This document shows, piece after piece, positions 19,743 through 22,511 of a stretch of DNA of 23,221 bases. The number at the start of each line of letters is the position of its first letter. Position 1 is the first letter of the stretch. The notes below the pieces were generated by a model. It did not search any database. It was not told where the DNA came from and was given only the letters and a program-made list of their open reading frames with translations. Both the position numbers and the translations under genes were made by a program. The DNA is from a virus, in IMG/VR virus record IMGVR_UViG_3300030333_003297, positions 1 through 23,221 of that record; one strand, given 5' to 3'.

Positions 19743-20372
19743 ATGGAAATACCTAATATCAGTATTCCTGAAATTTATATACCAAACGTTCCAGAGCCTT
19801 ATAATCCTCATTATTTACAAATAGCAAAGCCACCTGATATTAATGTTCCTGGTTGCACCTATCAACATCGTGATATAAAAAATACTGGTAATCGTAATTT
19901 ATTATTAGAAGATCCAAATGGTGTATTTACAACGTGTGATTTTCCGTTTCCTAGTTTTGTACCTCTTGACTATACACCTGAGAATATGGTCATTACAGAA
20001 GAACCACTTGTTGATAATGAACCACCGCCCTTACCAGAAACAAAGCAGCCAAAAATTCCTCCACCACCTGACCCTCCCCCACCAGATTTTGCTCCTTGCC
20101 CTGGTAAAAACGATCAACGAGTAGGAGACTTTCGTAACGAAAAGAAACTGGAACGTGTTATCGGACATGAAAGAGGGCAAGATGGTAGTGAATGTATAAC
20201 TCTCTATGAAACAGTTGAGTGGAAAGATCAGTACATACCTTCTGCCCCTCAGTTTGTTGGGGTATTTAGTTTGGCTTTGGTTGGTGCATCTGCTCCCCTT
20301 GTTTTACAACTTGTACGACCAATCGTTAAACAAGTCGTGACAAAGTTGACCAAAAAGAAAAAAGACAAGTAA
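19743..20372 (+). CDS. Proline-rich protein with C-terminal membrane anchor
   Basis: A 209-aa protein. The N-terminal two thirds are rich in Pro, Ile and Asn (IPNISIPEIYIPNVPEPYNP) with a proline tract near 94-117 that includes PPPPDPPPPDF. Four cysteines (in VPGCTY, TTCDF, APCPG and SECIT) could form two disulphides if the domain is outside the cytoplasm. Residues about 170-193 (FVGVFSLALVGASAPLVLQL) form one membrane helix followed by a Lys-rich tail, suggesting an N-out, C-in anchor. I recall similar proteins in cyanophages without assigned function. Candidate roles are envelope interaction, superinfection exclusion or lysis control; none is proven. It is the last plus-strand gene before the convergent operon. 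Confidence 0.6.
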   Translation: MEIPNISIPEIYIPNVPEPYNPHYLQIAKPPDINVPGCTYQHRDIKNTGNRNLLLEDPNGVFTTCDFPFPSFVPLDYTPENMVITEEPLVDNEPPPLPETKQPKIPPPPDPPPPDFAPCPGKNDQRVGDFRNEKKLERVIGHERGQDGSECITLYETVEWKDQYIPSAPQFVGVFSLALVGASAPLVLQLVRPIVKQVVTKLTKKKKDK

Positions 20373-20383
20373 AATAGTAATTC

Positions 20384-20415
20384 GTAGATGAGTTTAATAC
20401 CCGTGACTTATCTAC
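20384..20415. terminator. Inverted repeat between convergent genes
   Basis: GTAGATGAGT (20384-20393) and ACTTATCTAC (20406-20415) pair over ten positions with one G-U, around a 12-base loop. The element sits 11 bases after the proline-rich gene and overlaps the stop of the minus-strand gene. Position fits a two-way terminator, but there is no clean T-tract on either side and the loop is large, so it may only be a weak terminator or 3'-end stabiliser. Confidence 0.35.
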
Positions 20416-20999
20416 TGTAATTTGTGGGTATGTGGAATAACTTGATTAGGGGGAATGTTAACAATAATATCTTCACAGGTAACAGCACTAGGAGTATTAG
20501 GTTTAAAAGTAACACCTAATTTCGCCTGTTTTGCACACATCTCCAAACGATAGAGGCTGATTTCCATTTTAGTTTTCTTTATTAGTAACATCTGAGCATC
20601 TATATTTACTTGAGTAGCTTTGTGGCAAAGGTCTGGTGACTTTCCCAACGGTATGTTTAGTTGAGCCGAGATACCATAATTTAAATTAAAATTATCTTTT
20701 TCAAATCTAGGTATTTCTGAATAGTATTTAATCTCACCAGTATCTTCGTCATAGATGGGTGTTCTCGTAACGTATTCTTTGGGTCGTGCGAAAGACCAAC
20801 TATCGGTTACATAAGGTGTAATTGTAAGGCTAGGCGAAGCACACACTATGCCCTGACTCATTCTGTAAGATGGCATAGCTGATGGAGTTATCATCGTTGC
20901 ATTATTATTTACAACACCTTGAGCATTTGAAGAAGGAGAAGCTACTGTAGTGTTAGCCAAAACCCTTGCAGGGCAAAGGATTATAGCTATTGTCCAAAT
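20412..20999 (-). CDS. Secreted cysteine-containing protein, non-standard start
   Basis: The last gene of the minus-strand operon, about 195 aa if read from ATT at 20999-20997. The reading frame begins IWTIAIILCPARVLANTTVA, a hydrophobic core and VLA cleavage site like a Sec signal peptide, but no in-frame ATG, GTG or TTG lies in a position to start it. The next upstream ATG (21158) runs through sequence antisense-like in composition and out of frame within gene 20987-21418. ATT 20999, or ATA 20990 overlapping the upstream TAG, are the candidate starts. The mature part has five cysteines, a YYSEIPRFEKDNFNLNYGIS segment and helices around QVNIDAQMLLIKKTKMEISL. Related proteins occur in cyanophages as far as I recall. 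Function unknown; a periplasmic or surface location is inferred. Confidence 0.6.
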   Translation of the reverse strand: MWTIAIILCPARVLANTTVASPSSNAQGVVNNNATMITPSAMPSYRMSQGIVCASPSLTITPYVTDSWSFARPKEYVTRTPIYDEDTGEIKYYSEIPRFEKDNFNLNYGISAQLNIPLGKSPDLCHKATQVNIDAQMLLIKKTKMEISLYRLEMCAKQAKLGVTFKPNTPSAVTCEDIIVNIPPNQVIPHTHKLQ

Positions 21000-21418
21000 G
21001 TAGTTGTAGTTTCTGTTGTGGTGCTTGTAGTTATTTGACGAGTTATGGAAGTTACTGTGTCTAATCCTGGAGTAATTAGCGTTTCTTGTAGAGAGAAGGC
21101 TGCTCCATCGTTTGATATTGACCAGCGAGGTATAGCTTCTAAGTTTGGTGAAGTCCAATTAAAATTTACTCCTCCAACTGTTTGTTCATTCGTAGTCGTA
21201 GGAGTAGGGTTGATATATCCTGTTTCAGATTCGATATTGTGTCCTGATGCTGAGTATGAGTATCCTGTGCGATATTGATGGCTCGTGATTGTTTCATTAA
21301 TTATTGATTCAGATGTACTTGAAGTTGTGCTCGACCCTGTACGAAATTGTGGCACAATAGGCACAGCAAGGGTTCTTACTGGTAATACTAATAAAACTAG
21401 CAGCCAAAGTCTAGTCAA
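20987..21418 (-). CDS. Secreted Thr/Ser-rich protein (143 aa)
   Basis: I start it at TTG 21418-21416, which overlaps the end of the upstream gene (ATTGACTAG), because this gives a compact signal peptide TRLWLLVLLVLPVRTLA with cleavage before VPIVPQF; longer in-frame starts only add upstream coding sequence. The mature protein is rich in Ser and Thr, with YSYSASGHNI near residues 53-62, VGGVNFNW and DGAAFSLQETLITPG, and a low-complexity tail ITTSTTTETTTTF. It has no mature cysteine and no membrane segment. It resembles the 171-aa protein upstream in motif order, suggesting paralogy. Translation is probably coupled to that gene. Likely periplasmic or cell-surface; function unknown. Confidence 0.6.
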   Translation of the reverse strand: MTRLWLLVLLVLPVRTLAVPIVPQFRTGSSTTSSTSESIINETITSHQYRTGYSYSASGHNIESETGYINPTPTTTNEQTVGGVNFNWTSPNLEAIPRWSISNDGAAFSLQETLITPGLDTVTSITRQITTSTTTETTTTFGQ

Positions 21419-21926
21419 TCGTAATAGTAACTTTAGTAGATCCAATACAGCTAGTACCACTGCCTCCAGCCGTGCAAGTATGAATCCCAGAACTTAAAGA
21501 AGTAAGTGCAAGGTTTCCTGCTGTACCACCCGAAGCTACAGTTGTCGTTCCACCTAATACTGGTAAAGCTGCGATACCACTAGAAGGAGTTACAGCAGAT
21601 GGGGTGGCATCTCCCATTATTACGGATTCTGTTTTTGAGAAGGCCGAGCCCGATGTTGTCACCGAAGTGTCAGTTTGTATCATCGCTGGAACACCATTAG
21701 TCAAAGAGCCAACATTGATCCCACCAATCTTTCCTGATGTTGTGGTATCTCCTACAGTTACAGATGGGGTAATATTATTTCCGCTTAAAGAATATGTTGT
21801 TCCAACTTTTTGTGTAGTTACGAAGGGCATATCTACAGTGATCTGAGCAGATGTCACAAATTCTTGTTGGATGTCTGCTAGTACAGGACTAGATGCCAAT
21901 AATAATAATGGAAGTAGCTTTTTCAT
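21411..21926 (-). CDS. Secreted beta-rich protein (171 aa)
   Basis: It starts at ATG 21926 in an ATGA overlap with the upstream membrane protein gene. MKKLLPLLLLASSPVLA is a clear Sec signal peptide, cut before DIQQEFVTS. The mature chain is Gly/Ser/Thr/Val-rich and probably all beta (TTYSLSGNNITPSVTVG, KIGGINVGSLTNGVPAMIQ, SGSAFSKTESVIMG). It ends with a cysteine pair (C152 and C160 region, CTAGGSGTSC) before the closing strand TKVTITID. No enzyme motif is visible. Presence of a host-type secretion signal on a phage late gene points to an envelope function rather than a virion part, though that is an inference. Confidence 0.7.
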   Translation of the reverse strand: MKKLLPLLLLASSPVLADIQQEFVTSAQITVDMPFVTTQKVGTTYSLSGNNITPSVTVGDTTTSGKIGGINVGSLTNGVPAMIQTDTSVTTSGSAFSKTESVIMGDATPSAVTPSSGIAALPVLGGTTTVASGGTAGNLALTSLSSGIHTCTAGGSGTSCIGSTKVTITID

Positions 21927-22282
21927 TTTTTAGATTTAGGGTCGATAACTTCTGCTCCCTCGATTTTGATTGGAGTCACTACCCTTATAGTTTGAATCAT
22001 ACCTTCTTCCATGGCAACCTTATCGTCTTTCTTACTACTTTTTTTAGATCCCTCTAAACCGAATGTTGCGAGTGCTCCCGTCAGAAGCGAAGCAGGAAAC
22101 GTGATGTCTTTGGGTTCTGAGCTATAACCTGGAATTGAAATGTAGTTAAGAGTTACTATAAAACCACTCCAAACAACAACACCTAATCTGACAAACAAAC
22201 TTATAATTGCAAGTTGTTCTTCTTTATCATCTAAACCTTCCTTAAGTTTTTGGAAAGGATTCTTCTTCTTTTCTTCAGCCAT
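21923..22282 (-). CDS. Two-helix membrane protein, possible holin
   Basis: A 119-aa protein, first gene of the minus-strand operon. It has a charged N-terminus (AEEKKKNPFQKLKEGLDDKEE), a hydrophobic segment at about 24-48 (AIISLFVRLGVVVWSGFIVT), a second weaker one at about 61-78 (TFPASLLTGALATFGLEG), and a Lys-rich cytoplasmic-type C-terminus. Both termini are thus predicted inside. Size and topology resemble class II holins, and similar proteins occur in cyanophages as far as I recall, but no endolysin gene is adjacent to confirm this. Alternatively it may be an envelope partner of the three secreted proteins that follow with overlapping starts. Confidence 0.6.
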   Translation of the reverse strand: MAEEKKKNPFQKLKEGLDDKEEQLAIISLFVRLGVVVWSGFIVTLNYISIPGYSSEPKDITFPASLLTGALATFGLEGSKKSSKKDDKVAMEEGMIQTIRVVTPIKIEGAEVIDPKSKK

Positions 22283-22349: not shown

Positions 22350-22511
22350 ATGTATAAGATTCTAAAACCAATCTTACTTACGTTCTTAACTACAACTGCT
22401 GTTAAGAGATTAATAGTAGATTTACTTAAAACAATAGCTAAACAAACTACAAATACTTTGGATGACAGAGCAGTTGAACTTTTAGAAAAACAACTTTTCC
22501 CAATGAAATGA
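22350..22511 (+). CDS. 53-aa hydrophobic/amphipathic protein
   Basis: A short gene from ATG 22350 to TGA 22509-22511. It begins MYKILKPILLTFLTTTAVKR, then LIVDLLKTIAKQTTNTLDDR and ends LLEKQLFPMK: a hydrophobic N-terminal helix and an amphipathic C-terminal helix. The TGA overlaps the next ATG (ATGA), a coupling signal that supports its being real. I recall similar tiny proteins in cyanophages of different types, usually unassigned. It may be peripheral to or inserted in the membrane, and could contribute to lysis or membrane remodelling. No better function can be given. Confidence 0.6.
   Translation: MYKILKPILLTFLTTTAVKRLIVDLLKTIAKQTTNTLDDRAVELLEKQLFPMK

Follow-up and report, generated by a model that had tools for sequence, protein, structure and literature searches.

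What do four small genes, turned against the late genes of a siphovirus and encoding one membrane protein and three secreted proteins, do for the phage that carries them? The question is raised by the window, a 23.2-kb virus contig with late genes of a lambda-like siphovirus, in which an earlier note made from the sequence alone had pointed out a four-gene minus-strand set opposing plus-strand genes and had suggested superinfection exclusion, envelope remodelling or a lysis aid as its function. The set is confirmed by our analysis, and its members are listed in Table 1 together with plus-strand genes that adjoin it.

A gene set on both strands

Gene 1 belongs to DUF6450 (85.9 bits against a Pfam gathering cut-off of 25) and is a two-helix membrane protein as first described, with one strong and one weaker transmembrane (TM) segment in the window. 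The TM scan found two segments in 81/81 podovirus homologues, and the P-SSP7 record gives two by TMHMM; the second segment is weaker in siphoviruses and in about half of the myoviruses. Judged from its sequence, gene 1 would be a holin-like small membrane protein with charged, predictedly cytoplasmic ends. Gene 2 is a paralogue of gene 3 (hhalign 97%, E=3.7e-11), and gene 3 scores 97.0 bits against the DUF6322 gathering cut-off of 30.6. No enzyme family matched any of the four proteins, for which Pfam returned DUFs only, in agreement with the lack of a recognisable enzyme motif remarked on before; the NCBIfam search gave no matches. The start or stop overlaps claimed for all four genes are found at the 4-nt and 8-nt junctions but not between genes 3 and 4, which share 172 nt.

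Table 1. Coordinates of the module genes and their features in the window
Feature	Positions	Strand	Description and evidence
Gene 1	21923-22282	-	DUF6450 (PF20048, phrog_2714/721); 119 aa; Pfam E=1.7e-24, PHROGs 4.8e-33, TM scan
Gene 2	21411-21926	-	phrog_564, secreted, beta-rich; 171 aa; 4-nt ATGA overlap with gene 1; PHROGs 2.4e-34, predicted signal peptide
Gene 3	20987-21418	-	phrog_650 / DUF6322 (PF19847), secreted; TTG start, 143 aa; 8-nt overlap with gene 2; PHROGs 1.6e-38, Pfam 1.1e-27
Gene 4	20412-21158	-	phrog_848/1755, secreted, four invariant Cys; TTG start, 248 aa; 172-nt overlap with gene 3; PHROGs 6.9e-64
Gene 3/gene 4 overlap	20987-21158	-	172 nt; gene 4 leader before the signal peptide
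SD-like GGAGGAG	21169-21175	-	10 nt upstream of the TTG start of gene 4
Gene 4 predicted long beta hairpin	20667-20813	-	AlphaFold2 E51-71 + E78-99, mature piece
Gene 4 predicted 40-residue helix	20520-20639	-	AlphaFold2 H109-148, local pLDDT 84-92
phrog_570	19743-20372	+	In the module of all three phage types; PHROGs 2e-39
phrog_568 ("plasmid stability")	19520-19738	+	72 aa, N-terminal TM; PHROGs 1.9e-15
phrog_2738/402	22350-22511	+	53-aa hydrophobic protein; PHROGs 9.5e-20

The idea of a self-contained four-gene operon was not borne out, since the convergent plus-strand genes phrog_568 and phrog_570 belong to the same module. The phrog_570 protein is proline-rich and has four conserved Cys, a single C-terminal TM and a lysine-rich tail; neither an N-terminal signal peptide nor a lipobox was found in it. 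The small phrog_568 protein, apparently with one TM and a short periplasmic part, is a usual rather than constant member, present in siphovirus and myovirus modules and not found in those of podoviruses. More loosely associated is phrog_2738/402, which adjoins the module in siphoviruses and podoviruses and occurs without it in Syn5 and S-CRM01; it is possibly a second small membrane protein linked to lysis or packaging. In myoviruses only, there is an extra member, GC219 (phrog_605; S-SM1, L005:8670-9230), which has a TM at its N-terminus and, towards the C-terminus, a glycine-rich region of two segments.

Export signals and the gene 3/gene 4 overlap

Sec signal peptides are predicted for genes 2, 3 and 4, with cleavage between MKKLLPLLLLASSPVLA and D, between MTRLWLLVLLVLPVRTLA and V, and between a signal ending in YIWTIAIILCPARVLA and N, respectively, which agrees with the VLA, TLA and VLA endings read earlier. 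An A-x-A site after a hydrophobic core is present in 88-100% of gene 2 and gene 3 homologues, in 93-100% of siphovirus and myovirus gene 4 homologues and in 26/28 podovirus gene 4 proteins; a lipobox-like motif was found in 0% of the gene 2 and gene 3 homologues and in 0-3% of those of gene 4. The four Cys of gene 4 are invariant in 100/100 sequences. Among the exported set, gene 3 proteins are Cys-poor, and there are T/S-rich proteins with long strands.

AlphaFold2 models gene 4 (pLDDT 73, pTM 0.45) as a long beta hairpin, its strands at a local pLDDT of mostly 70-94, followed by a 40-residue helix, and gene 3 (pLDDT 84, pTM 0.47) as two long strands with smaller strands. Foldseek against the PDB gave nothing at E<=0.001 (best E 0.13 for gene 4 and 0.007 for gene 3); the weak fold matches were to ring-, collar-, appendage- and pore-forming beta-hairpin proteins, including Andhra tail and lower-collar proteins. 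In the viral structure library, the matches that passed 0.001 seem to be homologues from cyanophages, and a sequence search against solved structures gave nothing meaningful. The models offer only a hint of a pore-forming role for the gene 3 and gene 4 proteins. The two do not qualify as beta-barrel pore-forming proteins: there was no significant fold match, and strand alternation was significant in only one gene 4 strand; amphipathic alternation was significant in neither gene 3 strand.

The gene 3/gene 4 overlap, in which the basic, N/H/R-rich leader of gene 4 is encoded, is a maintained arrangement. The frame of gene 4 relative to gene 3 is identical in 254/255 loci carrying both genes, and it is open over the last 159 nt of gene 3 in about 98-99% of cases; when synonymous codons of gene 3 were re-drawn, it was open in 3.5% (siphoviruses), 12% (podoviruses) and 7.5% (myoviruses) of trials, and the other alternative frame was open in 0-1% in this re-draw test. 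The candidate start of gene 4 is a TTG at -168 in 80/82 siphovirus loci, mostly an ATG at -162 or -168 in myoviruses, and an ATG or GTG at -204 in podoviruses. Upstream of the gene 4 start, at least 4 nt match a Shine-Dalgarno (SD) sequence in 78/82 siphovirus and 81/90 myovirus loci, compared with 21-30% at control positions; podovirus starts had no SD excess over controls. Within the overlap, gene 3 shows only 7-11% less synonymous diversity, a difference that is significant in myoviruses alone and too slight for the amino acids of the gene 4 leader to be strongly constrained; the constraint thus appears to lie mostly on the open frame, the start and the SD and less on the leader sequence, as would fit the n-region of a signal peptide. 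The myovirus tallies for the overlap, and for the promoters described below, include the window copy and some loci from genome contigs; the picture is unchanged.

In podovirus loci such as L105, L110 and L163, the frame of gene 4 runs open across nearly all of gene 3, about 400 nt, and contains a conserved ATG at -360, so that a longer gene 4 leader is possible. The gene 3 homologue of P-SSP10 (L004:3717-4088) is unannotated in GenBank, probably because of its overlap with gene 4, which shows that gene 3 can escape annotation.

Distribution, late promoters and genome position

A profile-HMM scan for gene layout, covering about 250 loci, revealed one module common to T4-like, lambda-like and T7-like marine cyanophages. 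With arrowheads giving the direction of the genes (g2-g4 being genes 2-4), its layout is phrog_570 > DUF6450 > g3 > g4 > phrog_402/2738 in podoviruses; phrog_568 > phrog_570 > < g4 < g3 < g2 < DUF6450, then phrog_402 >, in siphoviruses; and DUF6450 > phrog_568 > (GC219) > phrog_570 > < g4 < g3 < g2 in myoviruses, where several genes separate gene 1 from g4-g3-g2 and gene 1 is read from the other strand. At loci with enough flank, gene 3, DUF6450 and phrog_570 accompany gene 4 in 14/14 siphovirus, 34/34 podovirus and 24/24 myovirus contigs, a count subject to recruitment bias, podovirus loci having been fetched by DUF6450 and the others by gene 4. The constant co-occurrence looked for in the earlier note therefore holds for genes 1, 3 and 4 and fails for gene 2, which is absent from podoviruses.

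In 21 named genomes the four core genes (DUF6450, gene 3, gene 4 and phrog_570) are all-or-none. They are present in eleven, namely P-SSP7, P-SSP10, MED4-117, Syn9, P-SSM2, S-TIM5, S-SM1, P-RSM4, P-TIM68, S-SSM7 and S-PRM1, and absent from ten, namely Syn5, P60, S-PM2, PSS2, S-CBS1, S-CBS4, S-CRM01, Pf-WMP4, T4 and T7; in this tally phrog_570 of P-SSP7 was counted as present on a weak match (E=0.0018), and a lone gene 3 match in S-PM2 (E=0.009, inside a 3048-residue frame) was taken as chance. DUF6450 is present but unlinked in S-TIM5 (about 11.7 kb versus 155 kb). This pattern supports the view that the genes are a linked, co-inherited envelope set with a dedicated function. Matches in the phage collection were confined to cyanophage or marine virus records, and one scan of genome contigs found no clear host family; its 15 matches, on SAG and MAG contigs, are read as phage-derived. 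The module-less genomes include those of the estuarine, coastal or freshwater Synechococcus phages S-CBS1, S-CBS4, S-CRM01, P60 and S-PM2, as well as Syn5, and Prochlorococcus phages mostly carry the module, with PSS2 as an exception; a host or habitat pattern is possible.

The cassette was already known in cyanomyoviruses, a report that the earlier note had missed. Sullivan et al. (2010) described five of the module families (T4-GC 218, 219, 234, 235 and 237) as a cassette in 15/16 cyanomyoviruses, often with a plasmid-stability gene, without a function and variable in genome position in 6/15 myoviruses (PMC3037559). The T4-GC tags of S-SM1 and P-RSM4 equate DUF6450 with 218, phrog_570 with 234, gene 4 with 235, gene 3 with 236, gene 2 with 237 and phrog_568 with 414, and by PHROG and Pfam the cassette consists of the same gene families as the set in the window; the report, however, was restricted to T4-like cyanophages, and gene 3 is missing from its list. 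New here are the podovirus and siphovirus versions, the export signals, the conserved overlap, the late-promoter motifs and the lysis-slot position.

Both cyanomyovirus transcription units begin with a T4-type late-promoter motif, the evidence for which comes from myoviruses only. The motif [AC]TAAATA stands about 28 nt before DUF6450 in 55/82 loci (67%) and about 33 nt before gene 2 in 61/80 loci (76%), compared with about 2% in random stretches and near-background levels before internal module genes. The CTAAATA form is an extension made here of the late motif published for S-PM2, NATAAATA (PMC2984593); the strict ATAAATA form alone precedes DUF6450 in 38% and gene 2 in 28%.

In podoviruses the module occupies a telling position. 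The gene order in P-SSP7 is tail fibre ... phrog_570, DUF6450, gene 3, gene 4, a small hydrophobic protein, TerS (phrog_891) and TerL; that in T7 is tail fibre, holin 17.5, TerS, the embedded spanin pair 18.5/18.7 and TerL. Between tail fibre and TerS, the module-less P60 encodes an endolysin (phrog_181, E=2.8e-31) together with a phrog_12220 protein, which has one TM and resembles a coiled coil; Syn5 carries phrog_12220 too, and no convincing match to it was found in module carriers. It looks as if the module and the endolysin/phrog_12220 pair replace each other within the lysis slot. The P60 endolysin gp37 and the phrog_12220 protein gp38 lie at L281:3353-4325, and phrog_12220 of Syn5 lies at L268:14393-14653, in both phages next to TerS. 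With an N-terminal TM and a likely coiled coil, and for gp38 a weak Rz-like match (E=0.03), the phrog_12220 proteins are candidate spanin-like proteins of module-less, "spanin-less" cyanopodoviruses.

A possible lysis role and the alternatives

Linked, co-inherited, furnished with export signals and a constrained overlap, and preceded in myoviruses by late-promoter motifs, these genes form what we take, tentatively, to be a late-expressed host-envelope module, most likely a lysis/egress cassette of marine picocyanobacterial phages. We infer the lysis role from position, chiefly because of the apparent replacement within the lysis slot: a module in the same slot as the cell-bursting genes of related phages may itself break open the host. 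Of the three functions put forward at the outset, a lysis aid is thus the best, at this tentative strength. In the proposed mechanism DUF6450 would act like a holin in the inner membrane, and phrog_570, proline-rich and anchored at its C-terminus, would span from the inner membrane into the periplasm. The products of genes 2-4 would be exported by Sec, and the gene 4 protein, a putatively disulphide-stabilised hairpin and helix, would assemble with partners at or in the outer membrane. Linked to phrog_570, the exported proteins would open the outer membrane at the end of infection, doing the job of a spanin without a lipoprotein. The division of labour, the outer-membrane insertion and the contact with phrog_570 are speculative.

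No module protein matched any holin, endolysin or spanin family by sequence, and a search with one endolysin family found no endolysin beside the module. Likenesses to known lysis genes lie in the arrangement. DUF6450, like the class II holin gp17.5 of T7, is small, has two predicted TM and is found in the interval between tail fibre and TerS, but the families are unrelated (phrog_2714/721 versus phrog_920) and DUF6450 has long charged termini. Two-component spanins such as Rz/Rz1 of lambda and 18.5/18.7 of T7 are likewise encoded by an overlapping late envelope gene pair, and the T7-like module, as the spanin pair in T7, has a holin-like gene and terminase genes as neighbours. Genes 3 and 4 share the overlapping, embedded or adjacent arrangement of such pairs; unlike Rz/Rz1, the module is without a lipobox, has cleavable Sec signals on both overlapping proteins and shows no sequence match. 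As for the inner-membrane subunit, which has an N-terminal TM and a periplasmic C-terminus, the TM of phrog_570 is C-terminal, and phrog_568 has an N-terminal TM but a short periplasmic part. A unimolecular spanin is not indicated either, because phrog_570, despite its C-terminal TM, lacks both a signal peptide and a lipobox.

Kongari et al. (2018) listed 20 Prochlorococcus and Synechococcus phages without a recognisable spanin, for which a fragile outer membrane was suggested (PMC6139136). Listed as spanin-less are the module carriers P-SSP7, P-RSM4, P-SSM2, S-SM1, S-SSM7 and Syn9 and the module-less Syn5, P60, S-PM2, PSS2 and S-CBS4 (PMC6139136), and the latter show that the module is not the general answer. 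In a literature search of incomplete coverage, no paper was found that ties the cassette to the spanin-less list or extends it to podoviruses or siphoviruses. By position and anatomy the module would work in the manner of a holin-plus-spanin cassette, but having neither the lipoprotein that defines spanins nor a sequence link to holins, it is assigned to neither group. It is conceivable, if rather doubtful, that phages of Gram-negative bacteria have in this module an additional class of system for disrupting the outer membrane, neither two-component nor unimolecular spanin. Such a class would rely on DUF6450 as its holin-like component, on a proline-rich protein anchored in the manner of TonB and on non-lipoproteins that are exported by Sec and encoded by overlapping genes; exchange between T4-like, lambda-like and T7-like phages of Prochlorococcus and Synechococcus would have spread it.

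Sec in cyanobacteria serves both the periplasm and the thylakoid lumen, so exported proteins could stabilise or modify membranes in either place as late envelope remodelling without lysis, or give the infected cell a surface layer or an appendage. The cyanophage-restricted mixture of several membrane and several secreted proteins would suit such remodelling, as would the T/S-rich long-strand proteins and the weak fold matches to appendage and ring proteins, but the lysis-slot position in podoviruses and the late promoters make it unlikely. Exclusion of superinfecting phages, or the masking of receptors on the cell surface, would account for secreted proteins without enzyme domains in a module common to phages competing for the same hosts. 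Exclusion systems usually need fewer than the 5-7 genes at which this set is kept, however, and the myovirus promoters are late, not early, which leaves this role distinctly unlikely; a PADLOC defence-family search gave no matches and is not a test of it.

Late promoters, the tail genes that adjoin the module in siphoviruses and podoviruses, and the weak fold resemblance to collar and tail proteins would also be expected of virion or virion-assembly proteins such as tail or collar accessories. Against this stand the cleavable Sec signals on three proteins, the sharing of the module by three phage types with different tails, and the record of S-SM1, a phage with virion mass spectrometry, in which the module genes are "hypothetical" and not "virion structural"; we weakly disfavour the virion alternative and regard it as improbable. 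Gene 4 was not found in S-SZBM1, a phage with a virion table, which has no bearing on virion membership. Least credible is a mobile cassette held by the "plasmid stability" gene with no joint function, in line with the mobility that Sullivan et al. (2010) had suggested. The variable position in 6/15 myoviruses (PMC3037559) and the occurrence in three phage types speak for mobility, but phrog_568, apparently a small one-TM protein, was not found in the modules of podoviruses, the core genes keep their all-or-none pattern of four even where DUF6450 is unlinked, as in S-TIM5, and the overlap is constrained; we consider this explanation highly improbable.

The preferred reading, a lysis/egress cassette, bears on how marine cyanophages open their hosts. 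Phage lysis of Prochlorococcus and Synechococcus moves much ocean carbon, and the module supplies concrete lysis candidates in the well-used laboratory phages P-SSP7, Syn9, S-SM1 and P-SSM2. The question of host opening in marine cyanophages thereby becomes testable by expression and knock-down.
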